Shown here: piece after piece, positions 972-61,240 of the stretch
How the letters are laid out: every line of letters starts with the position of its first letter
How positions within the stretch are numbered: position 1 is the first letter of the stretch
Assembly: GCA_037042185.1 (NCBI GenBank)
Contig: JAXQJY010000027.1
Span: forward strand, 682,001 to 746,000
DNA: 64,000 nucleotides
Direction of reading: 5' to 3'
Source of the DNA: Sordariomycetes sp. S80-01Y
Lineage: Eukaryota; Ascomycota; Sordariomycetes
Program-made: the position numbers and the translations under genes
Notes under the pieces: generated by a model
What the model saw: the letters and a program-made list of their open reading frames with translations, nothing else
What the model was told of the DNA's origin: nothing
The model's database searches: none

Positions 972-1627
972 GAGGGTACGCAACACGAGAAAATATCAGA
1001 TATCTGCAGCGGCAATTGATTGCGTTTAGCAAGGGGCACGCTGCTCGACCACGGCGTTCTGGAGTACAACGGCATTTAGCCAGCCGAAGAGGCATCTTGT
1101 TTTGAGGAGCGCTTTAGAGATCCTAGTAGCATTGGGAGGCAGAAAGATGGGTGGACCTGTAATTGTATCGTCTTCTTTGTATACACTTACTGGATTATGC
1201 GAAGATGCATCACAAAGAACTCAGAAAGCGGTGCTATGTAACTGTAGTGTTGTCAATGGCGCCCAGATACCTTAATTATATGCAGATCTGCCTCAAGTGA
1301 ACCTGCACCGGGCGAGATGAAATGTTGGTCTGACGAAATGTCCCAGAGCCTTGGCTGAGACTACTACTCACAGTACTTACTGATACTTAGTAATCAATTC
1401 ATGTTCCTCGAGCAGTTTTCTTTTACTCGGAATCCCCTGAGTTCAAGTTGAGCCGCCCTAAATAGTACCTTGTATGTGTGCTTCGCAGATTCTCGATCTG
1501 CACGTCACCGACAGCCCCATGGTGGGGCTACATCGAACTCACTCTTCGCATCATCCTGACCTCTAACCTCAGCTCACGTCCTCCATCACATCTCACCCGC
1601 GTCTCCCTCTCGCCAAAGCCCAGCGAG
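972..1627. other. Intergenic: PDB1 3' end and SKI2 promoter
   Basis: No gene seen. It holds the PDB1 3' untranslated region and the SKI2 upstream region. The reading frame of SKI2 stays open back to about 1478, but only from a GTG and with low-quality protein sequence, so it is treated as leader. Confidence 0.6.
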
Positions 1628-5515: not shown

Positions 5516-5784
5516 GGGCACGATATTGCTTCTCATAGAAAACTAGAATTCTTAAAGAGGCCGACTTGGTTCCGTCGTGTGATGTACCCTTGTCCCGTCA
5601 AACCTCCGACCTCATTACGTCGCAGTTCACATTCAATGGACGCCGAATCTGCTAAGAATGCCATGTATTCAGTCTAATTCCAGAAAACCATCCCTCGCTA
5701 ACGCCATCCCAATACAATCGGCGCACAAACTCATCAAGCATCTTGCGGCTGTCCCTCGAGCCGGGATTTCATCTGTAGCCCATT

Positions 5785-6473
5785 CTAAGCCCTCAAAGCC
5801 CTCAGCCTCTGCTGCAGCTTATCCTCCTCCTCGGCCGTCGGCTCCGTCGCCGCTTGCGTCTGCGCGGGCTCCGCGTTCGAGGGCGTGGCCTGGTTCAGCT
5901 CCTTGCTCAGCTCGAGGCCGGCGTCGTCGGCCAGCTTGCCGAGGAGTTCGTGGACGGCGTCCTCGGGGACCTGGGCGGATGTGGACTGGGTCATGGCGTC
6001 CTGGTAGATGTTGTTGCTCATGGCGTACTCCTCGTTCTGGTTCTTGAACTGCTCGAGGGTGAGAAGAGTCTGCGACGCATTGAGTTAGCATCATGCTTCG
6101 CGACAGCAGGCCTCAAGAGGATACGAACCTTCTCGGGATTGCTGTTCTTCTGCGCGGCGTTCATGACCCTTGAGCTCTGCCCCATCATCTGGGTCATCCG
6201 GTTCATGGCATTGTTCGCCTGGATCTGGCTCGAGTTTAGCTCCGCCATGTCGGCGATCTGGTCCATCTGCCCCGCCAGCGCCTGCTTGGACAGCAGGATC
6301 TTGGCCTTTTGGTAGGCCTTCTGGGTCTCGCCCTTCTTGAGGAGCTCCTGGATCTGCTTCTTGAGGATGGGGTCCTGCTTGGCGGCCTTCTGCGCCTCTC
6401 GTCGGGCCTGCTTCGCGTTGAAGCGGGCTTGGAACTCGACTTGCATGTCGCGGGCTTGTTGGCGGTTCGACAT
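5785..6473 (-). CDS. DID2: ESCRT-III-associated protein DID2/VPS46 (CHMP1)
   Basis: DID2 binds ESCRT-III and recruits the Vps4 ATPase during multivesicular body sorting at endosomes. Exon 1 is 6473-6129 and exon 2 is 6069-5785, separated by a 59-nt intron (6128-6070) that joins NSNPEK to TLLTLEQFKNQNEEYAMSNN. The 209-residue product matches the yeast length (204). It has the basic N-terminal helix (FQARFNAKQARREAQKAAKQ), the helical ESCRT-III core and an acidic C-terminal half. The last 15 residues (EEDKLQQRLRALRA) fit the MIT-interacting motif MIM1, (D/E)xxLxxRLxxL(K/R), which is what Vps4 binds. It is convergent with SKI2 and divergent from the DUF427 gene. Confidence 0.95.
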
Positions 6474-7244
6474 GGCGGCGGCTGGTCGCGCGGGGAGACG
6501 GACGAGATCTGCTATGGATGCGGGGTTCGGTAGGGCGGGAGTCGCTGTGCTTTGTGAGGCGATTGCGCGCTCGTTCTGCTAATGACGGACAGCGGCCTTG
6601 AGGGATGGCGGTGGCGATGATAAGGATGGAATTTGGGTTCTGAGTCGGGCTTCTTGATGATGGTGAAGAGGGGACGCCACGAAGTGACGCAACTGGGCGC
6701 CGGTTCTCGAACGTGGGGCACCGCCACACCTGTGGCTCTCAAGCCAGCGGGGACTGATTGCCTGTTGCATGGGAAGGCAGCGCTTGGAGAATAAATTAAG
6801 GTTAATATCGAAACTATGACATTAACAAGACGATCTCACAAGTCTGTGAAATTCATTATCGAGGGCACAGGCATTTGGTGCCATACTGTTGCTAGGTCGT
6901 CAGCGTCTTAGTCGCAATCACAGGCCTGGTGCAAGCCACGCTCTCTCCAGGGCTGTCAAGGCGGACAATCCCATCGCCATAGTGTCCGTTGGAGCGCAGT
7001 CTAACTTTAAATAATTGAGGGATTGTGGCCATTTACTAATCAGTCTCAGTGGACACATTCATTAGAGGGTGCTTTGTAACGGGCTGAAAGTCAGGGTCCA
7101 TCGCACGCCAGCGGGTGCAGCCAGAAAGTCCATGACGATGTCTTACATCTACTAAGCCATGCTACCCTGTTCCATCGTAAACAACCTCACTCCTCCCTTC
7201 ATGAATCTCGAAGAACTCTGATCCAAGTCCTCAAACTGGTCAAC
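6474..7244. other. Intergenic: divergent promoter between DID2 and DUF427 gene
   Basis: No coding sequence recognised. The stretch serves as shared upstream region for the two divergent genes. Confidence 0.5.
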
Positions 7245-7784
7245 ATGGCAACCAAAGCGCGCATGAATGTTCAGAGCTTTCCCCGGCCTCCAAAGCTGGA
7301 GAAGATAGCCCGTCATATCCGCGTGGTGTGGAACGGACAAGACATTGCAGATACCAGAGATGCGTACTGGGTTTTGGAAACACACCATCCCCCAAGTCCG
7401 CCGCACTTCTAGCGACTCACGAGAGTAGAATACTGACTCAACACTCGTATAGCATATTACCTCCCGCCATCCTCATTCAAGCTGCCCCTCAAGCCCGCAT
7501 CCCGCAAAACCTATTGCGAATGGAAAGGCGCTGCCACCTACTACACCGTAACCTCGCCGGTCGACAATAAAGCCGTGCCCAACCGCATCTGGTCGTACGA
7601 CAACCCGACCAATGGGTTCGAGCCGATCAAGGGGTATTTGAGTCTCTACGCGGGACCGTGGGAGTGCTGGGTGGACGGGGAGAAGGTTGATGCGCAGCCA
7701 GGGGACTTCTATGGGGGCTGGGTCACAAGTGAAATCGAAGGCGTGGTGAAAGGCAGGACGGGTAACCTTGACCCTATTGTCTAG
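7245..7784 (+). CDS. DUF427 domain protein
   Basis: The product belongs to the small DUF427 family, found in bacteria and fungi, whose biochemical role is not established. Exon 1 is 7245-7395 (MATKARMNVQSFPRPPKLEK to HHPP) and exon 2 is 7453-7784, joined as HHPPTYYLPPSSFKLPL. The 57-nt intron uses a weak donor (GTCCGC) but a good branch (ACTGACT) and TATAG acceptor, and the junction recreates the expected family pattern of VLETxHPPxYY followed by TxCxWKG. Later landmarks are ADTRDAYWVLE, KTYCEWKGAATYYTV, NRIWSY and YAGPWECWVDGEKV. The protein is 160 residues. Met7 is a possible alternative start. The domain assignment is solid; the donor needs RNA evidence. Confidence 0.82.
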
Positions 7785-9734
7785 ATTCTAACTCGCCTCA
7801 CAAGTTGTTGGGAGAAAGGGGTATCCGATTTATGGAACGTCGCCATGCGCAAGATACTATGTATGCTACCCCGGATCTACGCCCCTGTTGAGCAGGTCCG
7901 GCAGATGAATCCACGTCCTACGGCAAGCAGCATTTCGTCCTTCTCTAGAACTTCCCAATCAGGCAGTCGACGATATTCACTTTAAAGCCCTGCCTCTCTA
8001 GGAGGTCCAACGCGCAACATCCGGGCCGAAACGACGGACGTTCTTTATGTCTTGCCTAACAGAGAAGGTCGGAGGGTAGAAATGCGGAGAATCTTGGGGT
8101 TCGCCGCTGATCAGGGGTCCAACGCACAGAAAGTGAAAATGTAACCTTGGGAACCAATATTGAACCCACCGGAGGCCTTGAGAAGGACGAGCGCTTTGGG
8201 AAACTATTGAAAGTGTGTTGCTGGGGTCTGTGAGATTTGGCGATGACACTGAGGACGCTGTCTCAGCCTGGATCGCAGGTCCAGCCGTGCAATCAACAAG
8301 ACAGAGATGGTGGAGCAGCAGTGCAACTCGGAATGCGAGGGAATCTCGTTCCCTTCCGTCTATTCTGCCTGTGAGACAGGCGCACGACGTCGCTCCAAGG
8401 GGGGAGTGGAGCAACGTCAATCCAGCCCATCCTCCTGCTCGGCGTCCTTGCATCCAGATGCTTCTGCCTCTCGTCCAGCCTCCTTTTAAGCCTGAAGCCT
8501 AGCAGGCACGCTCAACAAGCCCTTGGTCAATGAGGTCAATAGGAAGGCTAGGCCAGCGTACGGATCTCGATTAGCACATGGGTTGGGGGCTGCGATCCTG
8601 TGGATGTCGAGTGATGTCGAGCTGCAGACGATAGGATCCTGGGGATCCTGCTACGCCCTGGGCGACGGGCCCGGGGGCCTCTCCCAGACGCATAGAGAGG
8701 CCTTTGGGAACGGGCTTGGGCAGACGGCCGTAATTGGCGCTCTTGGACGGGACCGAAACTATCGAGCGGATGGCGGGTGTTATTGAAGCGGCTCAATTAC
8801 ACGCGAATGCCGCCAGAGAAGCCCCGTCTTGCCTGATTCGGTCGCGTCATGAAAGGGGGTTTCGGGTCGACATCATCAGGGTGCCTCAGGCCTAGTGCCA
8901 GGATTGCCAGGCCCCGTACCCGTCTCAGGCGTGCCGGGGAATTGAGGGTCCAGCACTGGCAGTCAGCGCAGTGTAGTGCAGTGCAGTGCAACGCAACCTT
9001 CCATGCCCGAGCCAGACTGAGTTCACACACGACCGTGAGTCGGAACCCTGAGCCCTGAGCTGAAAGAAGATGTCGTAAGACGTTCCCGGAAAGGGAGCCA
9101 ATGGTCACCGAGAATAGCAGCCCAGGAAGAGGCGCTGCCTCGCAAGACGACGTCGTAACTTCTGTTTGGTGGAGGTTGCTGTGGCGCGGCGCGGCCCCTG
9201 ATTATCGACGGCTGAGACGAGACTTCGGGGCGATCCTCCGCCAGCACCGGCTTCAATAAAGGATGCAAAGGAGTGCGGGTTGGTGGCAGGAATTAGTGTG
9301 GCTATTCTGTCACCCCTGTCGTATCAACTTGGAAGGTTCCAGCTGGGCCCCGCCTCCTGAATGCAGGGGGGGTCATCATGGTCCGGCTTTGCGCCTGGAT
9401 CCTCAGGCACCGAGTCCTTGCTGACAAGTGTCCTCAAGATAAAGGGACCCTCGTTCCCCCTCGGCGCTTCCAACACTGCCAACCTGTCCACAACGACGGT
9501 GTCTCTGGACACGGTGTCCCTTCCTAGCCTCAGCCACGACCCTTCCAGATCGTCCAGCTGTCCCTGAGTCATCTTTCCTTGCAAAGGTGACTCATGGCCA
9601 TCTCGTCGGTGCCTGGCTTAGCTTCACCCCGTCGCCTATTATAACATAGCACCGCCAAAGGCTGTCGACTACCCTTTTAACGGCCTCAAAGTAAACTTAC
9701 TGCACGCAATCAAAAACCACACACATTGAGCGCT
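7785..9734. other. Long upstream region of hacA
   Basis: No gene recognised in about 1.9 kb. It contains a short GTGCA-type tandem repeat around 8967-8994, a GGATCC-rich imperfect repeat near 8633-8648, two AP-1/Gcn4-type sites and a TATA-like element near the hacA start (listed separately). Open frames here are short and lack conserved sequence. Confidence 0.5.
9565..9594. promoter_or_regulatory. Pair of Gcn4/AP-1-type bZIP sites upstream of hacA
   Basis: TGAGTCA lies at 9565-9571 and TGACTCA at 9588-9594, about 140-170 bp before the hacA ATG and just before a TATA-like TATTATAAC at about 9637. TGASTCA is the known core site of CpcA/Gcn4-class bZIP proteins. Function here is inferred from position and sequence only. 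Confidence 0.4.
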
Positions 9735-10963
9735 ATGGATCAATATTCCATCAACAACAACCAACTACCTGTCAAGATGGAGGCCTCACCCACCGAGTCC
9801 TTCATGTCAGTCCATGGCGACTACACGCCACTCTTCGAGGGCTCGCCTTCGAGGTCGGTCAACTCATCGCCTTCTATCCGACCAAGCGACACCTTCACAC
9901 CCAACTCGACCCTCCCCTACGAGGCTCTGAGCCCGACCATGTCCTCGGCTCCCAGCCCGGCATCACACACCCTTGTCGAGTCGGCCGGCTCGCAGCAGAA
10001 GAAGAAGCGCAAGTCTTGGGGCCAAGTCCTTCCCGAGCCCAAGACCAACCTCCCCCCACGCAAGCGAGCCAAGACAGAGGATGAGAAGGAGCAGCGACGT
10101 GTCGAGAGGGTTCTCCGCAACCGTCGCGCCGCACAGTCCTCGCGCGAGCGTAAGCGTCAGGAGGTAGAGCTGCTCGTCGAGAAGAACCGTCTGTTGGAGG
10201 AGAAGCTACAGGCGGCAGAGGAGAGGAACCTTCGTCTCGAGCACGCCCTTCGCGCCCAACAGACAGACGGGCAGACCGAGGGAGCCAAGTCCTACTCGAC
10301 GCTAGACAACACCCTGGCGACGAACCTCTTCCCCCAGGACGAGCCCCAGACCAAGGTAACTACCGACGCTTTACCCCAAACCATCAACATGGCAACTCTC
10401 TCGCCACCATCTTCAGACTTCCAAGTCAAGGATGACGCCCCCGAGCCCGCCCCCTTTCAACTTCCCTCCACCACCGCCCGCCCCTCCGACGCGACACAAC
10501 ATTCTGCAGCAATGTTGTGCGACCTGCAGTGTCCGTCGGAGCCGGCCAGCAACCCGGAGGCAGCACAGGCATGGGCTTGGATGATCTTCCTCGCGCAGAT
10601 CCTCAGGGCTTCGGTCCTTTCGGCGTGGCAGCGTCCGCTGACACAGATCAGTTTGTCCTTGAAAACGGGCTCCCCTCTAGTCCCGAGTCCGTCTATCTTG
10701 ACAACGATACTGTGGCTGGTAACAGCACCGAGTCAAACTTCGACGCGGCCTTCGAATCGTACCTCGACTTCCCGCTCCCGGACAACTTCGGTTCTGCGGA
10801 GTTTGGGCTGGCGGCTATCGAAACCAGCGCTGATTTCTGGAACGTCAACCAAGGTGACCAACCTGAAGGTGAAGCTACTCAGGAAGATCCTTTCTCGCAG
10901 CCCAATACTGGCGCGTCCTCTGATGGATGCGACGTTGGCGGCCTTGCGGTTAGTGTCCAGTGA
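9735..10963 (+). CDS. hacA: HacA/HAC1 bZIP activator of the unfolded protein response (Ire1-spliced form)
   Basis: HacA turns on chaperone and secretory genes in the nucleus after endoplasmic reticulum stress. The ATG at 9735 starts MDQYSINNNQLPVKMEASPTES. The family block KKRKSWGQVLPEPKTNLPPR precedes the basic region (RRVERVLRNRRAAQSSRERKR, about residues 118-142) and a leucine zipper to about 172. Removal of the 20-nt element 10507-10526 changes frame, giving DATQHSAVSVGAGQQP and a C-terminal half rich in Asp/Phe that ends GASSDGCDVGGLAVSVQ at the stop 10961-10963. That ending resembles the HAC1/HacA C-termini of Trichoderma and Aspergillus as I remember them. Length is 402 residues when spliced and 502 when not. 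The family assignment and the induced frame are very likely correct; the 3' end has a second possibility described in the findings. Confidence 0.93.
10495..10535 (+). promoter_or_regulatory. Ire1 unconventional 20-nt intron with twin cleavage loops
   Basis: The intron is 10507-10526. At the 5' site a perfect 9-bp stem (CACAACATT with AATGTTGTG, 10495-10503 and 10511-10519) closes a 7-nt loop CTGCAGC; at the 3' site a shorter stem (GAC with GTC) closes CTGCAGT. Both loops fit the known Ire1 consensus CNG|CNGN, with cleavage after 10506 and after 10526. Ends are not GT..AG. Removal shifts the frame and is required to reach the activation domain. Confidence 0.93.
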
Positions 10964-11243
10964 GAGCCACAACTCGACGGTCAACACCACGGTTAACGTT
11001 TCAGGCTCACCTGATGTCGATGGCGAGCTGACTCATCTCTTGCAGAACATGGCTCTGCCTCCTCGCGAAACCCTTCTAGCACTTGCCTGGACCCTCCGGT
11101 GCGAGATGAAGAAGATGGCTTCGCGGAGGCATAGCTCGTCCGTTGTGCTGGAGTCTAGGTCGAAGAAGAATGCTGTGTCACAGCACGACCTCAGTGGCGT
11201 GACCGAGTCCGTGGCTTTACAGGACGCTGCCGTACAGGCTTGA
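10507..11243 (+). other. Alternative C-terminus of unspliced hacA mRNA
   Basis: If the Ire1 intron is kept, the bZIP frame remains open for about 245 more codons, ending at 11243. The last 93 codons lie beyond the stop of the induced frame. Two parts look protein-like rather than random: ILARPLMDATLAALRLVSS (overlapping the end of the induced frame) and NMALPPRETLLALAWTLR with the helical sequence after it. I cannot test conservation here. It could encode a repressive tail, as unspliced HAC1/XBP1 products do in other organisms, or be reached by an additional conventional intron. Confidence 0.5.
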
Positions 11244-11468
11244 TCATGGTTTATGACAAAATGGGTGTAATGGTAATGGAGTTTAAGGGTCTCAGTGGTA
11301 TCTGAGCGGTTTGACATCCTGGACTGGGTATTGTGCCAGGTTTGAGTTGAATTGATATGCCCTATTGGGGTTTCAACATCATTATTGTGTGCAACAAATA
11401 TCGTGACTAATGCTCGCTGGTGAGGTTATCGTAATTCGTAAAAGTGAAACCATCCCCAAAGATAATGA

Positions 11469-48583: not shown

Positions 48584-49288
48584 ATGAGCACCACCAAGCT
48601 GCTTGTGCTCGCCGGCGGCAGATCGTCCCGGATGGGCTCCCCCAAGCATATGCTGCCTCTCCCGGATGGTCGTCCACTCTATACGCGCATAGCATCTGCG
48701 CTGTTCGAATGCTGCCCGGGGGCCACGGTACACGTCTCACTAGCCCGAGACTCAGTCTTTGACCATGTCAACGAGGGGGCACCGGCAGGCGAGCCCATCA
48801 TGATGCAATCAGGGATCGGAAGCGAGATTCCGATCAAAGTCATATACGATGAAGAGAATGAGGGCGATCCCGGGGGCAGCATACCTCAAATCGGCCCTGC
48901 CGCCGGTCTTCTGGCTGCGCAGCGAGAGGATCCTCATGCTACATGGATTTTGGTGGCTTGCGACTATCCACTCGTGACCGTTCACGCTTTGAAGCAGTTG
49001 AGGGATGCGCACACGGAGAAGTCTGCCGTGACATGCTTTCGAAACGCCCAAGGCTATGTAGAACCATTGCTTGCCATCTGGAGCCCGGAGGCTCTTGAAC
49101 GATTGCGGAAAAATGTGGGCGCGGGAAAGCAAGGACCCAGCTTCACGATAAAGCAGATGGGCGGAAATGTTCTCCAGCCCGCCGGCAGCGAAGAGACAGG
49201 GCTGTGGCTGTGGAACGCAAATGACCGAAACGAGTGGACGAAGTGCAGAGAAATCTTAGAGCAGTGGTACGAACAAGACCGTGATTGA
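48584..49288 (+). CDS. MobA-like molybdenum cofactor guanylyltransferase
   Basis: In bacteria MobA attaches GMP to molybdopterin to make the guanine dinucleotide cofactor used by DMSO-reductase-superfamily enzymes. This intronless gene encodes 234 residues. The nucleotidyltransferase signature LVLAGGRSSRMGSPKHMLPL lies at residues 7-26 (LxGGxSxRMGxxK). IPQIGPAAGLLAAQ (the GPxxGL turn) and WILVACDYPLV (the CDxP metal-binding site) follow in the right order, and EPLLAIWSP is the later conserved strand. It could in principle be a MocA-like cytidylyltransferase, but the bis-PGD enzyme two genes away favours guanylyl transfer. It is convergent with the MoeA gene, only 76 bp between stops. Such genes are not part of the usual eukaryotic cofactor pathway. 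Confidence 0.87.
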   Translation: MSTTKLLVLAGGRSSRMGSPKHMLPLPDGRPLYTRIASALFECCPGATVHVSLARDSVFDHVNEGAPAGEPIMMQSGIGSEIPIKVIYDEENEGDPGGSIPQIGPAAGLLAAQREDPHATWILVACDYPLVTVHALKQLRDAHTEKSAVTCFRNAQGYVEPLLAIWSPEALERLRKNVGAGKQGPSFTIKQMGGNVLQPAGSEETGLWLWNANDRNEWTKCREILEQWYEQDRD

Positions 49289-49364
49289 TACCATATCCCC
49301 ATGAGGGTAGTCTATGTCTAGAATATTGCTAAAATGACTACTTAATCTGGACCTCCTAACTGAC

Positions 49365-50720
49365 TCAGGACAGCCTCGGTATTGACCCCGGAAACAGTTC
49401 GTAACATGCCACCCTGGCGTCCTCCGTAGCCGGAGGCTCTGCAGGAATGTGAACCCAACAATTTGCTTGCGCATATGGAAGCACCTTGCTGGGACTTTGC
49501 TCTGGACTGAGCCTGACTGTTCTCTTGCCGTCTTGGGTGCTGATTACACCGTGCCTGAAATAGTCAAAGCGCCTTTGGTGCTTACCCGTTAGACAATTCC
49601 CGTTCATCTTAGCACCGTGTGACAAGTCCACGTCCATCCTAGCCCATGTTGGCCCCTCCCTACTATTACCAGCGATGTCCGCAACGAAGGGTGACACAAG
49701 GAACTTGAACGTTGCCGCGGTAGCACCAGGATTTCCCGGTAGTCCAAAGAAGGCAATATTCTGGCCAGCAGGGGCAGTAAAAGAGGCAAATAGGATCGGG
49801 TGGCCAGGTCTTATGGGGAGGCCGTGAAAATGGACACGGGCGCCTATCTGGCTGATTGCTGCCCTGACAAAGTCGAAACGGCCCTTAGAAACTCCCCCAG
49901 TTGATATGAGAACGTCAAATCGGTCGTGGTCAACGGAGTCCTTTACCTGCCTCTTGAAAGACCCGATTTCCTTGTTGCTGTCTCCCACAGCGCCCATGAA
50001 GCGAGCATCAGCTCCAAGCTCTCCGAGTGCTGCCGTTAGATACGGGCCGTTGGCATCATTCGTGTAGGAATTGATGAGGGTTGACTGGCGGATTTCCTTT
50101 CCGGTAGACCATATTCCAACCCTCAAACGCTTTTGCACATGGACACAAGGTTGCCCCGCAGACGCCAACAGCATGATGTGGCTTGAATGTATCACTTGAC
50201 CTTTGGGAACGATGCAAGCACCTTTCGGTATATCGCTGCCTGCGGGTCGGCGATGAGCTCGCGATGCCACGGGATGGCTGACCTCGATGTATCTCGCATT
50301 TTCATGGGTTAACTGGCGAATGTCTTCCACTTTAACGCAAGCATCCAGATCCCCCTCGCCAGCCTCCGACTGAGGGAACGGTGCCCCAGTCATGATCTCG
50401 ATGCAGGGGGGGATGGTGTCCTCCACTGATCGTTGGATCCTCATGGATGGATCTCCCGCCGCGCACGTCCCTTTGACAACGAATTTGGCCGGATTTTCGG
50501 GGGTAGCGTTCAAGGTGTAAACCGAGCATACGGCGAACCCGTCCATGGCGGCGGTGTCCGAGGGCGGAGTTGATATTGCTGAAAAGCAATCCTGGGACGC
50601 CTTGAGGCCAATGGCATCTTGCAATGGAACATACGAATCTCCCAGTATCCCACCCAAGGAGCTCTCTTCAGCTACCGATTTGATTATTTTCAGCGCCTCG
50701 GCGTAGGATGGCGAGGTCAT
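49365..50720 (-). CDS. Stand-alone MoeA-type molybdopterin molybdotransferase
   Basis: MoeA inserts molybdate into adenylylated molybdopterin. In eukaryotes it is normally a domain of a two-domain gephyrin/Cnx1/CnxE protein; here the 451-residue intronless gene has only the MoeA part. Landmarks: SYAEALKIIKS start; SDTAAMDGFAVCS (the conserved SAMDGYA site); PCIEIMTGAPFP; the MPT-binding domain VGIWSTGKEIRQ and LISTGGVSKGRFDFV (T/S-GG-S-G-D motif); and FFGLPGNPGATAATF. The C-terminal domain IV is present. No MogA/Cnx1G domain is fused. It is divergent from the oxidoreductase gene (676 bp apart) and convergent with the MobA-like gene, consistent with a dedicated cofactor supply. Confidence 0.92.
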   Translation of the reverse strand: MTSPSYAEALKIIKSVAEESSLGGILGDSYVPLQDAIGLKASQDCFSAISTPPSDTAAMDGFAVCSVYTLNATPENPAKFVVKGTCAAGDPSMRIQRSVEDTIPPCIEIMTGAPFPQSEAGEGDLDACVKVEDIRQLTHENARYIEVSHPVASRAHRRPAGSDIPKGACIVPKGQVIHSSHIMLLASAGQPCVHVQKRLRVGIWSTGKEIRQSTLINSYTNDANGPYLTAALGELGADARFMGAVGDSNKEIGSFKRQVKDSVDHDRFDVLISTGGVSKGRFDFVRAAISQIGARVHFHGLPIRPGHPILFASFTAPAGQNIAFFGLPGNPGATAATFKFLVSPFVADIAGNSREGPTWARMDVDLSHGAKMNGNCLTGKHQRRFDYFRHGVISTQDGKRTVRLSPEQSPSKVLPYAQANCWVHIPAEPPATEDARVACYELFPGSIPRLS

Positions 50721-51396
50721 GTTTCACGACTGAGCTGCGCCGGGCAGAGCAATGTCGGAACACGGTAAATGCGATAGCGCAGACTTTACCACGTCTCAGC
50801 TAGATTTGCGGTAGGCTCCCTATGGCATCATTTGAAAGGGATGAAGAACGAGGAACTGTTCGATGACCGGATGTCAGAATACATAGCTTGTCACGATGAC
50901 GTGGTACATACCTTTGCTGGTAATGATTCTGAGTAGCACAACCTTTCCATAACAAAACGATCCTGATGCAATTAATATTGTTTGGTAGAAACCACGTTCG
51001 GAGCAAACATGTTACCATGTTTGGCGAATGCTTTAGTTGTTTGGTCCCAGATCTAACCTCGCCAAACCTCACCACAAATGTGCCCCGACCATCTGAGACA
51101 ACCCTCTAGGCGAAGCGCATGCCATGAGCGTCCGCGGTCCGAGGAGAAGCGCTATTCAGACGCTACTTGTAAACGTAATTCCCATGCAGACCATCACCAA
51201 CACGGAAATGTTTCACAGTTTAAGGACTTGGCCACAGTGATTCAAATCATGGTGACATCATCGAAACGGCTTGCCTTTGTACGTCTGTTTGGCCAGTGTT
51301 AGTTGATTCCCCAGAGGACGCACTGTCGAGATTTATTATTCCTGCTGTTCAAGCACATCTTTTCATCGTTTCGCGGCCCTTGTATCTGCAGACATC
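50721..51396. other. Divergent promoter between MoeA and the bis-PGD oxidoreductase
   Basis: About 680 bp shared upstream region. A CGATAG GATA-type hexamer lies near 50772. No coding sequence recognised. Confidence 0.45.
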
Positions 51397-54300
51397 ATGG
51401 CCCAAACAAGGCCGCCGCCTGCGCATCAGACGCGCGACTCGGTCAAGGACATCTGGGGCCCCCGTCATCCTTACAAAGGAAGTTGGAGTTCTCGCGTGGA
51501 CTCAGCGCTTGATGAAGAGCCCGAGAAATGGGTACAGAGTGCCTGTGTCCTGTGCAGGTAATGTTACTACCCTTGTGTAAATCCTTGCCTGCAGGACCAT
51601 GTGACCTTACTGACACCTGAAAGTAACGGATGCGGGCTGGATATAGGTGTTAAAAATGGAACCATAGTTGGCGTCCGGGGGAGAGCCGATGACAGGGTTA
51701 ATCGTGGGCGTCTGGGTCCGAAGGGACTGCTTGGGTCAGTGAGGGAGAACTGATTAACGGTAGTTGAGGAACTGACACGGGATACAGTTGGAAGTCCATT
51801 GACCATCCCGACAGGCTGAAATATCCGATGATCAGAAAAAATGGTCAGCTTCAACGCGCCACATGGGACGAGGCTATGGATTTGATGGTGTCCAAGTCTG
51901 AGCAGTTCGCAAAGGAACTGACTCGACATAGTATCGGCTTCTACACATCCGGTCAGCTGTTCCTCGAGGAGTACTACGCGCTCGCCATGATAGGCAAAGC
52001 CGGCTTGAATACCTTGCACATGTTCGTCTGGCCATCGAACGCGCCGAAAATGATACTCTAACAGCTCACTAGGGACGGGAACACTCGTCTCTGCACAGCA
52101 ACGGCAGCTGCTTCAATGAGGGAGTCTTTCGGGTCTGACGGACAACCCGGATCTTATGAGGATATCGATGTCACCGAATGTCTCTTTATGGTTGGACACA
52201 ACATGGCTGCCACACAGACGGTTTTATGGAGCCGAGTTCTTGACAGGCTGGAGGGGCCAGACCCGCCAAAGCTCGTAGTAGTCGATCCGCGGTTATCGGA
52301 CACCGCTCGCAAAGCTACCGTTCACCTTGCTCCGAAAACAGGGACGAACCTTGCTCTTTTGAATGGGATCCAGTATCTTCTGATTAAGAATGGTTGGATT
52401 GACCGCTCTTTTGTCAATGAACACACCATTGGTGTTGCTGAGCTGGAAGCCATCGTGGACAAGTACAGCCCGAAAGAAGTCGAGAAAATCACCGGGGTCC
52501 CAGCTAGTCAGTTGGAAGAGGCAGCTGCTATACTGGGCAATGCCTCGAGCCTGCTGTCAACGGCGCTTCAGGGGGTGTACCAGAGCAACCAAGCCACCGC
52601 GAGCGCCTGTCAGATCAACAACATTAATTTGCTTCGCGGTAAGATCGGGAGTCCTGGAAGCGGCGTTCTTCAGATGAACGGCCAGCCGACGGCGCAGAAC
52701 AATCGCGAGGCGGGTTGCGACGGCGAGTTCCCAGGGTTCCGCAACCATCAGAACCCTGCTCACATGGAGGAACTCGCAAGACTGTGGAACATTAACCCAG
52801 AGCAGGTTCCCCACTGGAACGAGCCCACGCATATTGAAACTATGCTCAACCATATTGACCAAGGATCTATGGCCATGTTGTGGGTGTCCGGGACGAACCC
52901 TCTCGTCAGCCTGCCCAATTTGCCTCGAATACGCGAGCTATTCACTCGTCCTCAACTATTCCTAGTCGTGCAGGATATATTCATGACAGAAACGGCCAAC
53001 GTTGCGGATGTAGTGCTTCCCGCAGCTCAATGGGGTGAGAAGACGGGCTGTTTCACCAACGTCGACCGAACTGTGCATATTTCCCACAAGGCAGTCGATC
53101 CTCCGGGGGAGGCGAAACCCGATCTTCAAATCTTCCTCGACTATGCGCGTAGAATGAACTTCCGCGACCGAGACCAGAAACCACTCATGCCTTGGACAGA
53201 GTCCGAAGAAGTGTTCGAGGCTTGGAAGAAGCTCTCGAAAGGCAGGCCATGCGACTACACCGGCATGACATATTCGAAGTTGACCGGAAGTCCTGGTATC
53301 CAATGGCCGTGCAACAGTGACCACCCCGATGGCACGGAGAGGCTTTTCAGTGATAGTCAATTCTTTACCGAAATTGAGCATTGTGAGAGCTTCGGTCACG
53401 ATCTGGAAACAGGTGCCCCTTTGAGCAAGGACGAGTATCGCGCGATGAGTCCGCGTGGGCGAGCGATACTCAAGGCTTGCCATTATCTACCTTCGACAGA
53501 AGAGCCCAACGCAGACTACCCACTTCGGATCTCCACCGGAAGGAAAGCCCATCACTTCCATACGCGGACCAAGACGGGACGCACAGCACTGCAAGACGCT
53601 TGTCCTGAGCCAGAAGCAGCATTATCGCGGAGGGATGCGGAGGAACTTGGCGTTGAAGATGGTGAGATGATAATCGTCCGCTCGCGGCGGGGATCCGTTG
53701 AGATGAAGGCACGAATCGGCGGCGTGCGCCAAGGGGAAGTCTTTATTCCCTTTCACTTTGGATACTGGGATGCGGCCAAGGGTGGAAGAGCAACAGCAGC
53801 AAATGAGTTGACAATGGGTGAGTGCCTAGAGAGTGCCAGGACAGATTGAAAGGCTGACATTTCATGTAGAGCAATGGGATCCGGTATCCAAGCAACCTCG
53901 CTTCAAATCAGGCGCAGTGCGTATTGAAAAGATAGCCCCTCGCAGCGAGGACAATGGAGCAGTGCGAGTCCCAGAACAGCAGACAGGCGCCGTGGACCGG
54001 GCCTCGGCGAAAAAACCCAACGCCATATCTGAAGTCACATCCTCCGGCCACAGAGAGCGTATGCTTGAGCTATGGCTCGGCGAAGTTCTTGAGGCGACCG
54101 TTGAGCTGAAGGACCTTCTGGAAAGGTTGCTTCCTGGTATGCTGAATGACCTCGAGATCCACGCTGGGTTACTTAATCTGGGACGTCTTGCGGACAGCGC
54201 GGTCGGTACCTTGGCTGAACAAGAGAGTAACTACGAGCATCGAGATAGAGGGATTTTCAACTTTGAGCGCCACCCGGGCGAAGCACGAACCCGCGGACGA

Positions 54301-54609
54301 CGTCGAGCGCGTCAGCTAGCCGAGTGGTTGTTTGGCGACGAGTCGGACAATGTGCCAGATGATGATCATGGACTGTACAAGGTTTTGAAGACGCTTCAAA
54401 GCCTCCATGTGTTCATTTCAAACATCCAAGCGGGCATCACAGCGCTCGTTCCGACCAGCCAGGCTTTGTGGGATGCTGCCTTCACCGAAGCTGTGGCCAG
54501 TGTCGGCGGGATCATGGGGCGCATGCAGGCCTGGGTGTTGTATCAGATCAAAGTTCGAAGTCCTCAGGCGTTGGTTGTGCCAACTCTCCCGCATGGAAGC
54601 TCTGGATAG
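51397..54609 (+). CDS. Bacterial-type Mo/W-bis-PGD oxidoreductase (DMSO reductase superfamily; nitrate reductase/formate dehydrogenase-like)
   Basis: A 996-residue molybdopterin oxidoreductase from five exons (51397-51557, 51624-51734, 51788-52021, 52073-53817, 53870-54609). Order: N-terminal iron-sulphur domain with SACVLCSNGCGLDIG (Cys50, 53, 57); RGRADDRVNRGRLGPKG, where Gly85 stands in the usual fourth-cysteine place; GWKSIDHPDRLKYP; RATWDEAMDLM; DGNTRLCTATAAAS with Cys176 at the position of the Mo-ligating cysteine of Nap/Nas reductases; NNINLLRGKIGSPGSG; WVSGTNPLVSLPN; AQWGEKTGCFTNVDR; the dinucleotide-binding domain (LRISTGRKAHHFHTRTKTGR to RQGEVFIPFHFGYW); and the closing WDPVSKQPRFKSGAVRIEKI. 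About 220 more residues form a helical extension. No export signal (no twin-arginine) is visible. Substrate could be nitrate, formate or another oxyanion; I cannot decide. Confidence 0.93.
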
Positions 54610-55817
54610 TAATGGGGATCGGAACTAGGAAGCACCCGCCCGTCTTAGTATCTCGGTTCATTCTTGGACTTGACCAAGGGACCTCACAAACAACCTGTCA
54701 AATGTTGCGAAGACTTTCATACTCCGGGGGAGAAAATCATGGGTAGAGATAAATATTGACTTTGATGGCGAAGGTTTGGTCGATGTCAATATACTTTGTA
54801 CACGAGACGCCTGTGATGCATATTCCGGCTACTTGAGACAAGTAGTACCACGAAAGTCAACCCTTTGAGCAGCTGTGTCTAAAGATTGAAACTGAAAAGC
54901 AGCGACTACTAAGTTTGCTAGTGTGAGTATATTGGCGGAATGAACGTCAAAGCAGCCTTTCAAATCTACTTGGTAAATGAAATCGTCGAACAACTACATG
55001 AAATTTTACCAATTTCAATCCTCCCTAAACTCTCGGTCTATTCATCATCTATTTTTCAATTTCGTTACTTCTCACCAATAACTGTAGTTATGTTCCAACG
55101 TTCTAAATGTTCAACTTTGATCCTGTTTGGCAGAGGCAACATACCAAGTCACACCCATTATCGAAAACTTCTTCTCACGTGGAGGCTTTTTAGAAGGCGA
55201 AAGACCCGGGCCCAAGAGAATATCGAAACAATCAGGCCCCAAAACTTCTCATCACTGCCGCTGGTTCCGGGTACATTGTCTTCACCTCTCATCGAACGGC
55301 CGAGCGCCAAAACGATCGTGACATGGAGGCTCGGAACGATCCTCGGGAATTCGGAAGTCGTTCCGAAGGTGGCTCGGATGACTTCGTTAGGGACCGAGCT
55401 CGATCATCCTTGATGGTTGCGCTTGGCTGGCTCCAAGCCCTTCATCCATTCGCTTGTGGACGCCATTCTGCCCCAACATTGATCATTGGACTGGCTCAGC
55501 CCCATGATTAGGCGGCGCCGAATATTTTATCGTCTTGGTCTACAGAAACAGACCACCCCATACTGACGACAAGGGGCCTCTCCACACGCCGTGCTGGACC
55601 TTCTCCGCCTTCTCCGTCCTCCACCCATCCCGCAGCGTGGCCCCTCGGTGCGGGCATTTGTTAATCGCTACGCATGGGAGAGAACTGAACCGGGGCCAAG
55701 GCTCCTTTGCAGTGAACCAGACTTCCCCGATTCTCGGCCAGCTACGAGCAAGATGGCTTCTCTCCCGCACCACCATCGCCAGCCTACCTTTCCTAGCAGC
55801 GACTCCAGTTCTTGACA
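54610..55817. other. Intergenic between oxidoreductase and Zn2Cys6 regulator
   Basis: No gene recognised in 1.2 kb. The first part (about 54740-55120) is AT-rich; the rest is regulator promoter. Confidence 0.45.
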
Positions 55818-58544
55818 ATGTCGCCTACTCTGGGCAACGGCGGCGACAACCTGTCAACCTCGTTTGCACCCGATCAAGCCCCTGCGGGAGCCGAAAGCCA
55901 GCAAAATGGAAGACGACGTACTCGCAGACGCCACAAGATTTCCCTCGCGTGTGAAGAGTGTCGGTCAAGAAAAGTTCGTTGCGACGGAGTACGACCGGAG
56001 TGCACCGCTTGTAAACGCAGACCTTCTGGCCAGCGACGATGCACGTATCCCAGAGAGCTGCCTAAGCCTTCATCGGATAAAAGGTGAGCAAGGCTCAAAC
56101 GACCTCATCGATGTCTTCTTCTCTCTTACCCTCGTTAGCAGACTGATGCAGTCATTCAACGAGCGACTGGCTCACTTGGAAGGACGACTCACTCGACAAG
56201 CAACAGAGCAGCAGACACCGCCTGCGACAACTACCTCTGACAGCCCCTGGCCAAAGCATGCGTTACTTGAAGTGGCAACGACGCCCAGATCAAGTAGCAA
56301 AAGCCCTTGTCTTATAGACCTACCTCCCCCTGAGGCCCGAGCCTCCTCAGAACACAACCAGCCGATGCCTCGTGCCGTTCCGAAAAGCACCCGGGACGTC
56401 GAAGGCCAGCACAGCGATGAGGCTGCTCCCCCTGATGAGGACCCCTCGGCCATCAATGCGATGGGTGTTGCGCATCTAAGCCCAGAGGAGGCCAAGTCGT
56501 CCTCCGGCGAGTTCTATGGCAAGTCCTCTGCTGCGTCGTTCTTGAGCGACATTCATGGTCGCCTTCACCCAGAAACTGATCATCCGCCAACTACCGGGGG
56601 CCGGAGTGAGCCTTCAGGCTCGTCGAAGTTGGCGGGTCCTTTGCATCTTAGAATGTCTGAAGTGGACGATTACCATCTTCCTCCAAGGCATGTGACTGAT
56701 CATCTCTTGGACCTATACTATACGAGGGCTCACTGCCTGTACCCATACCTGCACTGGTCAACTTTGATGAGTGCGTATCGTCTCCTGTGGCTGTCTGAAT
56801 CCGAAATGAAAGCTGCTGCTCCTCTGAGTGGTGTCGGCATTGGCGGTCCCCAATGCTCACAACCCGTTTTTTATTGCGCGCTGAACGCCATTTTCGCACT
56901 GGGAGCTCAGTTCTCGTCTGGATCGATGAGAGAGCGGAAGGACCGGGCAAGGCCATATGCGCGACGAGCTAGACACCTTCTTCGTCTCGATTATCTCGAT
57001 CGTGGCGAGCTTGCCCTTGTACAAGCTCTTTTGATCATGGCGCATTACCTCCAAAGTACGAACCTGCCGTCAAGGTGCTGGAGTGTAGCTGGAGTCGCTT
57101 ACCGCATGGCTCAGGGCTTAGGACTGCACATTGAGCTAGGCGAGAAGTTGGGATCTGCACTGTACCGAGAGATGAGAAGACGGGTATGGTATGGCTGTGT
57201 CTGTCTGGACATGTGAGGCACTTACCCTTCGATTTGGATCACGCTAAAATCTACCAGAGTCCTAGGAATGACTCTAGGTCGTCCTTGCCTGAGCTCTCCC
57301 AAATCCAGCGTGGCGATTCCCAACGTACTTGAGGAGGAAGCGGTCGACACCGCGAATGAATCCGCGTTAGGGCAATGTCAGGATGCTCCTTCCACCGTAC
57401 TATTCTTTTCTGAAACTGTACGGCTCTACAAAATCCTGGAGAACATCCTCAGCCAGGTCTATGATCCCTGGAAAGAGTCCGAGGCGGGCATGCTTGATAC
57501 CGTCGAGGTTCAGAACGAGAAAACGCGGCAGTTCTCGTGCATTGTCGGCATTGATTCAGATCTCAACCAGTTTGAGTCACGTATACCTGAGGTACTGCAC
57601 TGGAACACACACCGTTCAGAAGATACACATATACTACGACGCCAAAGGAATGTTTTGAAGACGAGGTGATTTCCCAGAACCGCCGTTCAGTACATCTCCG
57701 GCTGATGAAAATAACAGGTTTCTACATACGAGAATACTTTTATATCGTCCGCTCTTTGTGCAATTATGTCAAATGCAAAAGTCCGCCCCTGTGTCAGCCT
57801 CGAACAACAAATCGCCTCGCAACGAGCAGGATATTTTTAGGGTCATGGCCGAGAAATGCTCAGAAATCTGCTTACAGAACGCCCAGGAGCTAATTGAACA
57901 TATTCATTCCACCTCTCAGACTTTGGCAACCGGCGCCCCTTGGTTCAACTCGTACTGTAAGTTGTCGCCACAAATCCCCACACCTTATTCCTCTCTAATG
58001 CCCAGTAGACTTGTACCATTCTGCCATGATTCTAACGCTGGCTGAGTTTTGTCCCTCAGTCCGCGATCAGCTCACCAAGGCGACACTTGATCGTTCATGG
58101 CAGCAGTGCCTCGAGTCTCTCGAGCGCATGTTGGAGCATGACCCTGAGTCATATCGTTATTTGCGGACACTGAGAGATATCTCGGCCTACGTGCAAAGAA
58201 CCAGTTCATGTCAGGCTTTTCCCCTTTCGTAATCATGGATGAGCTGGGCGCTGACTATGCCAGGGAACGCAAGTAATGATTCCGCAGGCCCGGCAAAAGA
58301 AGCAAGTGAAGTCCGCCAAGAACAAATCGTAGACCACATCACACACCCACGTTTGGATATGTCAGCGGCCTCTTGGATTGGGGAAGATCCTCATTTCGAC
58401 ACATTCACTCACTTTGGAGACAGCGACCTAGGATCGGATCTTTTCAGGGATTCCACGTATGTCTTTGGAGGCGGTGGTTTTAACCAACCAATGAACTCCA
58501 TGATGGGAGACTGGTCGATGGATGGCGCCAACTTTGGGTTTTAG
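55818..58544 (+). CDS. Zn2Cys6 transcription factor with fungal-specific TF domain
   Basis: A nuclear regulator of 821 residues from six exons: 55818-56083, 56142-57212, 57258-57665, 57718-57956, 58009-58209, 58264-58544. The binuclear cluster is CEECRSRKVRCDGVRPECTA followed by CKRRPSGQRRC, preceded by a basic RRRTRRRHK patch. After the first intron comes a coiled coil (RLMQSFNERLAHLEGRL), a long disordered Ser/Pro segment, then the fungal_trans domain (about residues 265-560): HLLDLYYTRAHCLYPYLHWS, ALNAIFALGAQFS, MAQGLGLHIE, RRRVWYGCVCLD with IVLGMTLGRP across an intron, and RFLHTRILLYRPLF. The C-terminus is acidic and Gly-rich. Its position directly beside the molybdenum genes makes it a candidate pathway regulator, but this is inference. 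Confidence 0.9.
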
Positions 58545-59195
58545 GCCATTGCCTGCTTGAATGTGCCCTGGAATCAATAGACGTACTGCCTTGCAACGCT
58601 CAAAGGACTTGTGTCTCTCGTACCAGAGTTGGTAGTTGAGAAGACTGTGCGAAGTTCGCTCGATCGCAATGAGCAACCTCAGGTCAAGAACGAGGGGTGG
58701 ATCGAAGTTATACTACAACGTACCTTCAGATGTATTAAGTAAGAGACAGAGTCGGGTAGTTCGAGTTCTGTTGTGACCGCCTGTGAGAAGCCTCATTATC
58801 CGTGGGGATATGAGAAAGCTCTCGGGAACCCCTCAATCTCACGGAATCACACCAATATCTCCGACATCGATACCCCCGAGATTCGGGCGCTAGATGCGGA
58901 AGTTGCTACCGGACTCATGTGCATGGCTTCTCCGTAGCAAGCTTGGTTAGGAAGACTTGCCGGGTCCGAGGGATAGGAGAGAGTCGTTACGGACCGTTGT
59001 CCGATTGGTCAATTGTAAGCCTTCCGTTCCGTGCTCTTTGCGGGGATCACCCATGCTCGGTGTTATACGTTGAGCTATGTCGTGAATGATCGCCTCAAAG
59101 ATATATCCCATGCGTAGTATCGCGCCTTTTGGAGAGCTCAGTCTTGTCCTACTTCTTGTTACAGACGCAGAAACGATCGCCCAAGGCCGGACACT
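58545..59195. other. Intergenic
   Basis: About 650 bp; regulator 3' end and monooxygenase promoter. Nothing further recognised. Confidence 0.45.
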
Positions 59196-60604
59196 ATGCC
59201 TTTCAACGTCATCATCTGTGGAGGTGGTTTAGGCGGCCTCGGAGCAGCCATTGCTTTGAAAAAGAAGGGCCACAATGTCACCGTTCTTGAGGGGGCTACA
59301 CAGCTTGCTGAGGTGGGAGCTGGTATTCAAATTCCTCCAAACAGCTCCCGTATCCTCTCCCGTTATGGGCTTAAAGACGACATCGAGAAGCTTGTGGTGT
59401 GGCCTCAGAATATCAACTTTCGACGGTACTGCACTGGAGACGTTATTGGCAGCACGCCTCTTGATCCTCGTATGAGTCTGGAGTATGGCTTTCCGTACGT
59501 TGACCCAACATGCTGTACCTATTTAGTCGACGCGACATCTAACGAGTACACCAGGTACTGGCTCATTCACCGCGCGGATTACCAACGCTGTCTCTACGAG
59601 CATGCTAAAAAGATTGGCGTCAAGTTGCTCCTCAACCACTTTGTTGACACAGTCGACACCACCGCACCGAGTGTCAAGTTGGCCAATGGCAAAATCATGC
59701 ACGCCGATCTCATCGTTGGGGCAGACGGTATCCGTTCAAGAGTGAGAGCAGCCATTTTAGGTGACGAGAATGTGCATGCGGTCGATTCCTCTAACTGCGC
59801 CTACCGAGCCACGGTCCCGAAGGAGGTCATGCTTTCCGACCCCGAAGTTGCTCATTTGATGAGCGATATCAATTCCAATTGCTGGATTGGACATCAGCGT
59901 CACATCATGGCCTATCCTATCCGGAATGGAGAGATGTACAACCTCGTCATGTCTCATCCCGGAAAAGCAGCCGTGGGTAAATGGAACGAGCCAGGAAATA
60001 TCGAGGAGATGAGAGACCATTACGATCATTTTGACCCTACTATCAAACGGGTCGTGTCCAAGGTAACATCTTGCTTAAAGTGGAAGCTTGCAGACCTCCC
60101 TCCACTTCCTCGATGGGTCAGTGAAAGCGGGCGCGTCGTGGTCATGGGAGACGCCGCTCACGCCATGGTTCCTTACCTTGCTCAAGGCGCAGCCACCGCG
60201 ATCGAAGACGGTGCTGCCCTGGCCGAGTGCGTTGACCGCGCTGACGATGTGTCGATGATACCGGCAGTGCTGTCCGCATTCCAAGACATCCGCAAGGCGC
60301 GCTGCGACATCATACAGGCGGGGTCGAGAGGCAATGGCGATATATGGCATATGCCAGATGGACCTGAGCAGGAACAGCGGGACAGAGATATGCTGAATGA
60401 ACTGCAAGGAAAGGAGAGGGTCGAGTCTGATGTACGAAATCCCAACCGGTGGTCGGACCGAAACTTCCAGCCGTGGTTGTTCGGGTACGACACGTTTCAA
60501 GAGGTATGCATCAATATTTCTGTCGAAAGTTCCTATTCTAACAAGTGTATCAGACTTCGAGGTTCCTTGCAAAGGAATTCGGCGCTCCTGAACCGTCACT
60601 TTGA
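59196..60604 (+). CDS. FAD-dependent monooxygenase, salicylate hydroxylase-like
   Basis: A class A flavoprotein hydroxylase of 432 residues. Exons 59196-59494, 59555-60503 and 60554-60604. The first intron (GTACGT, TCTAAC branch, CCAG) is 60 nt without a stop, so it hides in the open frame; its removal gives YGFPYWLIHRADYQRCLYEH, the family's conserved block. The last intron leads to a short exon ending DTFQETSRFLAKEFGAPEPSL, ending the gene well before the open frame does. FAD sites are VIICGGGLGGLGAAIAL (GxGxxG), LIVGADGIRSRVR (DG motif) and VVVMGDAAHAMVPYLAQGAA (GD motif). It hydroxylates an aromatic substrate with NAD(P)H and oxygen; which one is unknown. No signal peptide. Confidence 0.9.
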
Positions 60605-61240
60605 TCTGCGAATGCAGAAGACCCGCAAAGCGGTTAAAGATGATAGTAGTTTAGAAGGCTTTACGATGAAAACAACTTCTTCATTGATCCTTGAGGTTTC
60701 GTATTGCGTAACAATTAGGCCAGACGAAGAGATACTCGGCGACAATTTTGGAAGCGGAATGCTCAAGCCGACGCCTGACCTCACGGAATCTTCCGGTGCT
60801 AAGTGGACTAATATTCCATGAGGGGCTTTCCACGAATTTTCTTAGTGTTGCCGGAAACATGTTTTTCTCTCATCGGAGAGCTTGAAGGCCACTGGCTCCC
60901 TGAATCCGGGGATTTGCGTTGAAAAGCCATGGCTCGCCAACGCACCGTCCTGGCGCTCTACACGGCTGAGACATTGATTTGATCCCGAAAGCCGGTCTCC
61001 CCTCTGAATCTTGTACTTACACATTGTCACTTTTGCCTTCTGTCAACTTCACGTTGAAAGAGCCGGTCGATCTCTTTTCGCATGTGATCGTGGCTGCTAT
61101 CAATAGTTATCTAGCCGCGGACCAAAGATGGTCAAGGCGTGAGTTCAGAAGAATCCTGTGTTCTCAAAGAATTCAATGATCTCGGTAGAGCGCCGCAATC
61201 ATACTTTTCATGTTCAGGACATATTTATTCCCACCACTGC
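60605..61240. other. Convergent intergenic region
   Basis: About 640 bp between convergent genes; nothing recognised. Confidence 0.45.

Follow-up and report, generated by a model that had tools for sequence, protein, structure and literature searches.

Contiguous MobA-like, MoeA-like and molybdenum oxidoreductase genes on an ascomycete chromosome

The window analysed here, the whole 64-kb stretch of DNA from Sordariomycetes sp. S80-01Y (contig JAXQJY010000027.1, positions 682,001 to 746,000), contains a contiguous trio of genes on an ascomycete chromosome, encoding a MobA-like protein, a MoeA-like protein and an oxidoreductase of the dimethyl sulfoxide (DMSO) reductase superfamily. The initial annotation had described this contiguity, and the coordinates and Pfam domains agreed with it. 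Overall, the best explanation is probably that an acquired bacterial oxidoreductase, accompanied by MobA and MoeA and based on bis-molybdopterin guanine dinucleotide (bis-MGD), has become naturalised in the ascomycete.

Gene structure and fungal setting

The MobA-like and MoeA-like genes were found tail to tail with a gap of 76 bp, and the MoeA-like and oxidoreductase genes head to head over 676 bp (Table 1). Open frames were intact in all three. The exon-3 frame of the oxidoreductase alone matched the Pfam domains Molybdopterin (4.4e-40) and Molydop_binding (3.4e-21). The reading frame of this gene stays open with six combinations of GT-AG sites, of which the chosen one retained the C-x2-C-x3-C and GPKG motifs. 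The four short introns announced by the initial annotation were all GT-AG introns, and the same sites recurred in a second contig. In the intergenic region between the MoeA-like and oxidoreductase genes, one simple pattern for a NirA-type site gave no match.

This second contig (L004, 5.4 kb, 1-5437) is filed in a public Mucilaginibacter metagenome-assembled genome (MAG) and encodes an oxidoreductase with all four introns at equal residues and phases. The splice sites of L004 were selected as those scoring highest relative to the window protein and so are not fully independent, yet the GT-AG sites had to exist. Identity to the window enzyme amounted to 74% in the core and 43% in the C-terminal part. 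Over 520 codons of exon 3, the number of nonsynonymous substitutions per site (dN) was 0.21 and the differences at the three codon positions were 22, 14 and 57%, as expected under purifying selection; the synonymous counterpart (dS) was not computable for this pair (returned as -1). As L004 also carries a MYND-finger frame near the enzyme gene, we read it as probably a fungal contig misbinned in a bacterial MAG. It begins at the oxidoreductase, so that the flank in which MobA and MoeA would lie is off the contig, and MobA-like and MoeA-like matches in the assembly of L004 were confined to one 32-kb contig, read as the bacterium's own.

The genes flanking the trio were likewise fungal (Ski2, Swi3, complex I 21 kDa, Grg1, DUF3533 and GH47), and a HAC1/XBP1-type non-canonical bZIP intron was located at 10478-10545 on the plus strand (Rfam RF04247, 49.3 bits), in keeping with the earlier placement of the oxidoreductase among fungal genes. 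Third-position GC of the trio (0.57-0.63) was at the low end of that of ten other window frames (0.55-0.80), and the codon usage of the oxidoreductase correlated with that of six pooled window frames at r 0.69. For the trio, whose transcription is predicted, bacterial contamination or a decaying relic was considered as an alternative. The introns common to the two contigs argue strongly against contamination and, together with the constraint between the two copies, the fungal flanks and the open frames in all three genes, make this alternative highly improbable.

Table 1. Positions of the trio and associated features in the window
Feature	Position	Strand	Remarks
MobA-like molybdenum cofactor guanylyltransferase gene	48584-49288	+	234 aa, one exon; Pfam NTP_transf_3 3.8e-25
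Stand-alone MoeA-like molybdate insertase gene	49365-50720	-	451 aa, one exon; MoeA_N 4.1e-29, MoCF_biosynth 3.2e-24; no MogA domain
Spacer between the MoeA and oxidoreductase genes (divergent), candidate shared promoter (putative role)	50721-51396		676 bp
bis-MGD-type oxidoreductase gene	51397-54609	+	spliced product 996 aa, four introns
Oxidoreductase exons	51397-51557, 51624-51734, 51788-52021, 52073-53817, 53870-54609	+	
Oxidoreductase intron 1	51558-51623	+	GT-AG; residue 54, phase 2; equal position in L004
Oxidoreductase intron 2	51735-51787	+	residue 91, phase 2; equal position in L004
Oxidoreductase intron 3	52022-52072	+	residue 169, phase 2; equal position in L004
Oxidoreductase intron 4	53818-53869	+	residue 751, phase 1; equal position in L004
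C-terminal helical domain of the oxidoreductase (about residues 776-996)	53944-54606	+	counterpart of a separate bacterial protein of about 152 aa
Frame with fungal-specific transcription factor domain	55816-57213 (start approximate)	+	Fungal_trans 3.2e-18

Ancestry, active site and fused domain of the oxidoreductase

In a single scan of genome contigs, 44 loci matched the oxidoreductase, 38 of which fell within its family while six (L039-L044) were distant. After removal of duplicates, 55 bacterial family loci, from Spirosoma, Deinococcus, Micromonospora and Halomonas among others, were 54-62% identical to the fungal core, the exceptions being Staphylococcus (plasmid copy, 46%) and Streptomyces (partial copy, 51%). 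The oxidoreductase belongs to an existing bacterial family. A 42-row tree was built without the six distant rows, another 17 rows of Micromonospora, three duplicates and one partial row. It placed the two fungal oxidoreductases in a 100/100 clade nested within the bacterial family. Bacterial and fungal members together were supported at 100/98 without the Staphylococcus copy, whose row was flagged by the program as a long branch, as was the outgroup. The tree bears out the earlier description of a bacterial-type enzyme of the bis-MGD superfamily and, together with the introns shared with L004, the view of an old, naturalised transfer rather than contamination. The sequence comparisons support an old horizontal transfer from bacteria, of which the tree leaves the donor unplaced.

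The nearest rows to the fungal pair in the best tree were L001 and L071 (Pseudomonadota), at a support of only 54/78. Sister groups for approximately unbiased (AU) tests were named after inspection of the tree. A sister relationship between the fungal enzyme and the Bacteroidota rows was rejected (p-AU 0.001, or 0.006 with the addition of Gloeothece, which nests among them), and a wider sister set of Bacteroidota, Deinococcus, Halomonas and one Chloroflexota row was compatible with the data (p 0.09). Constraining all fused genes (see below) into one clade with L077 was likewise compatible with the data, though not shown by them (p 0.211).

The family is sparsely distributed. At E 1e-100, members occurred in 3/247 genomes from the phylum of G003, 2/299 from that of G002, 2/151 from that of G004 and 1/297 from the order to which G002 belongs. 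Every count includes its centre genome, which was picked because it carries a family member. Plasmids provided 383 records matching at E 1e-50, and among the 40 listed, 20 were at least 48% identical. On the Vreelandella sulfidaeris plasmid (L077, 5755-8320) three hypothetical proteins are annotated over a member whose alignment falls into two pieces, so that the gene may be broken. Three scans of viral contigs revealed no relative, and PADLOC gave no match for the three queries.

The oxidoreductase carries its Molybdopterin and Molydop_binding domains in one chain and aligned over residues 39-771 to NapA, its best solved relative (2.9e-111). Its Cys176 aligned with the Mo-ligand Cys140 of Desulfovibrio NapA, and the equivalents of Gln111, Gln346 and Arg354 of that protein (numbers counted along the chain of the aligned structure), which we take to be the pocket Gln and Arg residues, were retained. 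The Fe-S motif, in contrast, consists of C50, C53 and C57 followed by Gly85 in place of the fourth Cys; Thr177 follows the Mo ligand where NapA has Cys-Met, and a Gln occupies the position of NapA Met308. Cys-Thr and this Gln were present in all 56 covered family rows and the fourth Fe-S Cys in none, whereas three outgroup rows had four Cys, Cys-Met and Met308 (L074, which adjoins nirD and an MFS transporter gene; L076, annotated as nitrate reductase; and L075, which is unannotated). By sequence, the enzyme falls within the NapA/NasC architecture, yet lacks the residues that mark those nitrate reductases, and NasC/NapA membership was rejected because both the fourth Cys and Cys-Met are absent. 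These altered residues, like the C-terminal fusion described below, go beyond the initial annotation.

The NCBIfam NasC model gave 325.9 bits for exon 3, 437.5 bits for the Spirosoma homologue and 479 bits for outgroup L074, so that its cut-off of 1100 does not discriminate, since the outgroup is also below it. The best NCBIfam model was that for the formate dehydrogenase alpha subunit (382.7 bits for exon 3). Formate dehydrogenases have a His after the Mo-ligand Cys. The fungal Thr at that position and a score below the cut-off of 666 led us to reject this assignment.

A side observation concerns the Fe-S motif in actinobacteria. In 34 of 57 rows (L005 and 33 other actinobacterial ones, such as L024, L062, L066, L079, L080 and L081) C-x2-C-x3-C...G is replaced by S/T-x2-H-x3-D...D or G, and this concerted change suggests that a different metal, or no metal at all, may be bound there. 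The Mo-ligand Cys was retained in 33 of these 34 rows, the remaining one (L038) having no coverage there.

The C-terminal domain corresponds to a small bacterial protein whose gene usually lies after the enzyme gene. By tblastn, identity of the domain was 39% with L004 and 27-31% with five loci from bacteria, and in an alignment it was 16-25% identical to the bacterial small proteins. With the Spirosoma protein as tblastn query, the small protein was matched in 49 of the 56 family loci, L004 among them, and was unmatched in L025-L027, L035, L038, L065 and L080. It was fused to the enzyme in L001 (a Methylobacteriaceae MAG), L061 (Halomonas), L115 (Pseudomonadota) and both fungi; L031 was not counted as fused because its frame disagrees with the start of the enzyme match. 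Clustering of the neighbours at 14 loci yielded a single cluster present in at least three loci, in which enzyme and small protein were merged through the fused L001. ORF calling around the bacterial loci was crude, and neighbours named by eye are to be taken as leads. The fungal copies therefore have in common with the bacterial family of 'nitrate reductase' plus small protein the core identity, the pocket changes and the C-terminal partner, but are fused to that partner and carry introns, whereas 3/55 bacterial copies are fused and one has moeA nearby.

The structural model of the C-terminal domain (predicted local distance difference test score, pLDDT, 80) resembled the ferritin-like YciE/YciF proteins (DUF892), with a target TM-score of 0.70-0.82, a Foldseek E of 0.04 or weaker and an identity of just 8-14%. 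Bacterioferritin and Dps folds were nearly as good, and the Spirosoma small protein matched DUF892 at 8.6e-4, below cut-off. From these models, a ferritin-like fold of the YciF/YciE type is likely rather than proven.

The enzyme would most likely reduce nitrate or a comparable oxyanion. HPP transporter genes were present in 3/14 annotated plasmid loci (L059, L061 and L063), a formate/nitrite transporter gene in 1/14 (L059), and SLAC1-family channel genes next to the copies of Spirosoma and of G047 (on the opposite strand in the latter, locus L113), together pointing to nitrite or a like anion. An Arabidopsis HPP protein is reported as a nitrite transporter candidate (PMC4137279). Arguing against a nitrate-type substrate, 11/14 plasmid loci lacked both HPP and formate/nitrite transporter genes, and no nitrite reductase was annotated in the 14 plasmid neighbourhoods (6-7 kb per side or to the record end, in incomplete gene tables). 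Several bacterial loci moreover lie near stress-type genes, with four-helix copper-binding proteins in L065, L066, L079 and L080 (4/14). Thiamine-pyrophosphate-requiring proteins were encoded near L062, L066 and L081 (3/14 plasmid loci), and the recurrence of these two kinds of neighbour suggests a stress island. Nitrate can be named tentatively as the substrate, another oxyanion or an N-oxide is also possible, and something else altogether is rather doubtful.

An ordinary assimilatory nitrate reductase of the NasC/NarB type, acquired as a spare, would account for NapA as the best solved relative and for the name 'nitrate reductase' in many of the 40 listed plasmid records. We nevertheless find it distinctly unlikely, given that the residues separating the outgroups from the family hold in 56/56 family rows and that nitrite reductase was missing from the annotated features, in incomplete gene tables, of the 14 plasmid neighbourhoods. 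On the plasmids of Hymenobacter volaticus, a nitrate-reductase-like gene beside nirD (L074, 2599-6114) was found along with a family member (L060, 6518-8821), and their coexistence speaks for separate functions.

The MobA-like and MoeA-like proteins

The best NCBIfam models for the MobA-like protein were those of MobA (79.7 bits; 56.1 bits for TIGR02665 against a cut-off of 151.85), with MocA at 26.5 bits; all were below cut-off, as were three bacterial relatives of the protein (73-94 bits). Its AlphaFold model (pLDDT 84) has a MobA-type fold, the eight best matches in the Protein Data Bank being MobA of E. coli and Archaeoglobus (1.9e-12 to 1.1e-9), and structures of M. tuberculosis Rv0371c matched at 2.9e-8. 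With MobA ranked first by profile and by fold, the earlier call of a MobA-type protein beside the enzyme is sustained. The motifs LAGG, Lys, GP.AG, CD.P and N-x-N are common to the fungal protein and its bacterial relatives.

Such relatives occurred in 46/198 Bacteroidota genomes at 1e-8 (best 2e-16) and in 0/200 Pseudomonadota genomes, in a scan without positive control. Plasmids contributed four records at 1e-3, two of them from Acetobacteraceae (Kozakia and Komagataeibacter) at 30-36% identity. Compared with MobA of Bacteroidota and of these two plasmids, identity was 29-36%, with LAGG or LSGG/LTGG/LVGG and a similar N-x-N; the fungal protein differs by an insert and by MGSPKH, and many of the Bacteroidota proteins are fused to another domain. 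A Bacteroidota-type MobA, and hence a mosaic cluster, was considered and dropped, as the Acetobacteraceae plasmids carry relatives and the sampling comprised two phyla plus plasmids.

At both Acetobacteraceae plasmid loci (L118 and L119) the MobA-like gene adjoins oxidoreductases of the FdhF/YdeP family, a 'nitrate reductase associated protein' and fdhD, and one of the two also carries moaA, moaD-type and moaE genes. By analogy, these loci would present the bacterial counterpart to an enzyme provided with a MobA of its own, which fits a role of the fungal protein in bis-MGD supply.

The MoeA-like protein was 26-36% identical to bacterial MoeA matches and could be aligned with archaeal, E. coli and gephyrin proteins; alignments read by eye showed the motifs DG, TGAP, STG.E, GG.S and LPGNP to be retained. 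It has the MoeA domains in common with fungal CnxE/gephyrin, but is without a MogA domain and only modestly similar to gephyrin E. A join with a Pyrococcus protein in the MoeA tree was dismissed as a long-branch join. Of the phylogenies that the initial annotation had proposed, that of the oxidoreductase nested the fungal enzyme in a bacterial family, whereas the 30-row MoeA tree gave no placement. A bacterial precedent for the linkage of moeA with the enzyme is locus L113 (genome G047 of the Bacteroidota set, 3734-11307, minus strand), where genes for the enzyme, the small protein, moeA, tauE, a ThiF-rhodanese protein and a moaC-MoCF fusion are consecutive.

Several observations weigh against a working bis-MGD module. 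The trio is known from this window only, and among the 56 family loci moeA was near the enzyme in one and mobA in none (E 1e-3; several loci are short contigs). Agreement of codon usage with the pooled neighbours was poor for MobA (r 0.42) and MoeA (r 0.34), the native Swi3 frame reaching 0.40. The MoeA_C match scored 15.2 bits against a Pfam cut-off of 22.1, and the MoeA end branch (2.43) was the longest in the 30-row tree, with no secure placement. Two pocket residues of the oxidoreductase differ from those of nitrate reductases. GlmU folds came right behind the last MobA match (1.3e-9 versus 1.1e-9), so that the fold alone leaves the function of the MobA-like protein unsettled, and the fungal protein has MGSPKH where 14/14 aligned bacterial relatives have MGxDK. 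Reading LAGG as the guanosine triphosphate (GTP) type presumes a nucleotide-specificity rule that we take to hold here; with LAGG for and MGSPKH against, use of GTP appears likely from the motifs, not certain.

The MGSPKH motif and the nearness of GlmU would also suit an oxidoreductase that uses nucleotide-free bis-molybdopterin (bis-MPT), beside which the MobA-like protein would modify something else or use another nucleotide; bis-MPT is known from E. coli YdhV (PMC9103625). This seems improbable, since profile and fold rankings put MobA first, LAGG is retained, the closest MobA relatives reside in neighbourhoods of molybdenum cofactor (Moco) genes or bis-MGD enzymes, and the gene lies about 2 kb from an enzyme of a superfamily that requires the MobA product. 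The very long branch of MoeA, its weak domain IV match and the single family locus with moeA nearby could instead reflect a repurposed paralogue outside enzyme maturation, as reported for actinobacterial Glp, in an accidental neighbourhood. We regard this as unlikely, because the gene stands head to head with the oxidoreductase and tail to tail with MobA, retains the motifs listed above and finds its linkage to the enzyme repeated at L113.

Proposed pathway, neighbouring genes and significance

Under the preferred explanation of an acquired bis-MGD system, an ascomycete ancestor would have acquired a bacterial cytoplasmic, Cys-ligated oxidoreductase of the DMSO-reductase superfamily. Its fusion to the small helical partner would have come before or after the transfer, and the enzyme gene would have gained introns in the fungus. 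The molybdenum-bearing molybdopterin (Mo-MPT) would be made by the ordinary fungal pathway, presumed to operate in this species, the local unfused MoeA, as a second MoeA type, might load molybdenum for this branch, and MobA would add guanosine monophosphate (GMP) to give bis-MGD. The oxidoreductase would then use bis-MGD and an Fe-S cluster held by only three Cys. A cytosolic location appears plausible because the start of the protein is close to that of its bacterial homologues and leaves no room for a long presequence. Among the scanned frames, Pfam detected neither a flavin nor a haem domain that would point to an electron donor.

The initial annotation had also placed the trio next to a regulator, which held loosely. 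A Fungal_trans frame does begin at about 55816 and, from its position, might regulate the cluster, but a search of the unspliced window with one Zn2Cys6 pattern gave no match. Past this frame, a FAD_binding_3 monooxygenase-like frame (59118-60818, plus strand) might be part of the cluster.

According to published reviews, the enzymes of eukaryotes are confined to the sulfite oxidase, xanthine oxidase and mARC families (PMC6147048), the dinucleotide cofactor has been found only in prokaryotes (PMC9370521), and DMSO-reductase-family enzymes are exclusive to prokaryotes, with MobA not found in eukaryotes (PMC4633490). Contrary to this, the abstract of one review calls DMSO reductases widespread in all domains. 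In fungi, MoeA is stated to be fused to MogA or lost (PMC11733289), in a survey that retained only matches with all three MoeA Pfam domains, of which the window MoeA falls short. Molybdopterin oxidoreductase genes in shrimp are reported to be 99% identical to those of a bacterium (PMC3750580). The titles and abstracts listed in searches of PMC contained no report of a fungal MobA or a fungal DMSO-reductase-family enzyme, although annotated but undiscussed copies may well exist, and the main text of two surveys of fungal horizontal gene transfer (PMC4320630 and PMC11291939) was without 'molybd', 'nitrate reductase' or 'MobA'.

Evenly balanced, in our judgement, is the full proposal that some ascomycetes make and use bis-MGD through a dedicated MobA and a second, unfused molybdenum insertase, for a cytosolic three-Cys Fe-S enzyme with an active site unlike that of nitrate reductases, a built-in ferritin-like partner and maybe a new substrate. 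With the fungal cluster, it can be tested directly whether bis-MGD can be assembled in the cytosol of a eukaryote. The cluster is relevant to the proposal of MobA as a drug target confined to bacteria. It also brings a bacterial enzyme family whose biochemistry was not met in the literature covered into a tractable setting. At least some fungi may thus make and use a form of the cofactor that is regarded as confined to bacteria and archaea.

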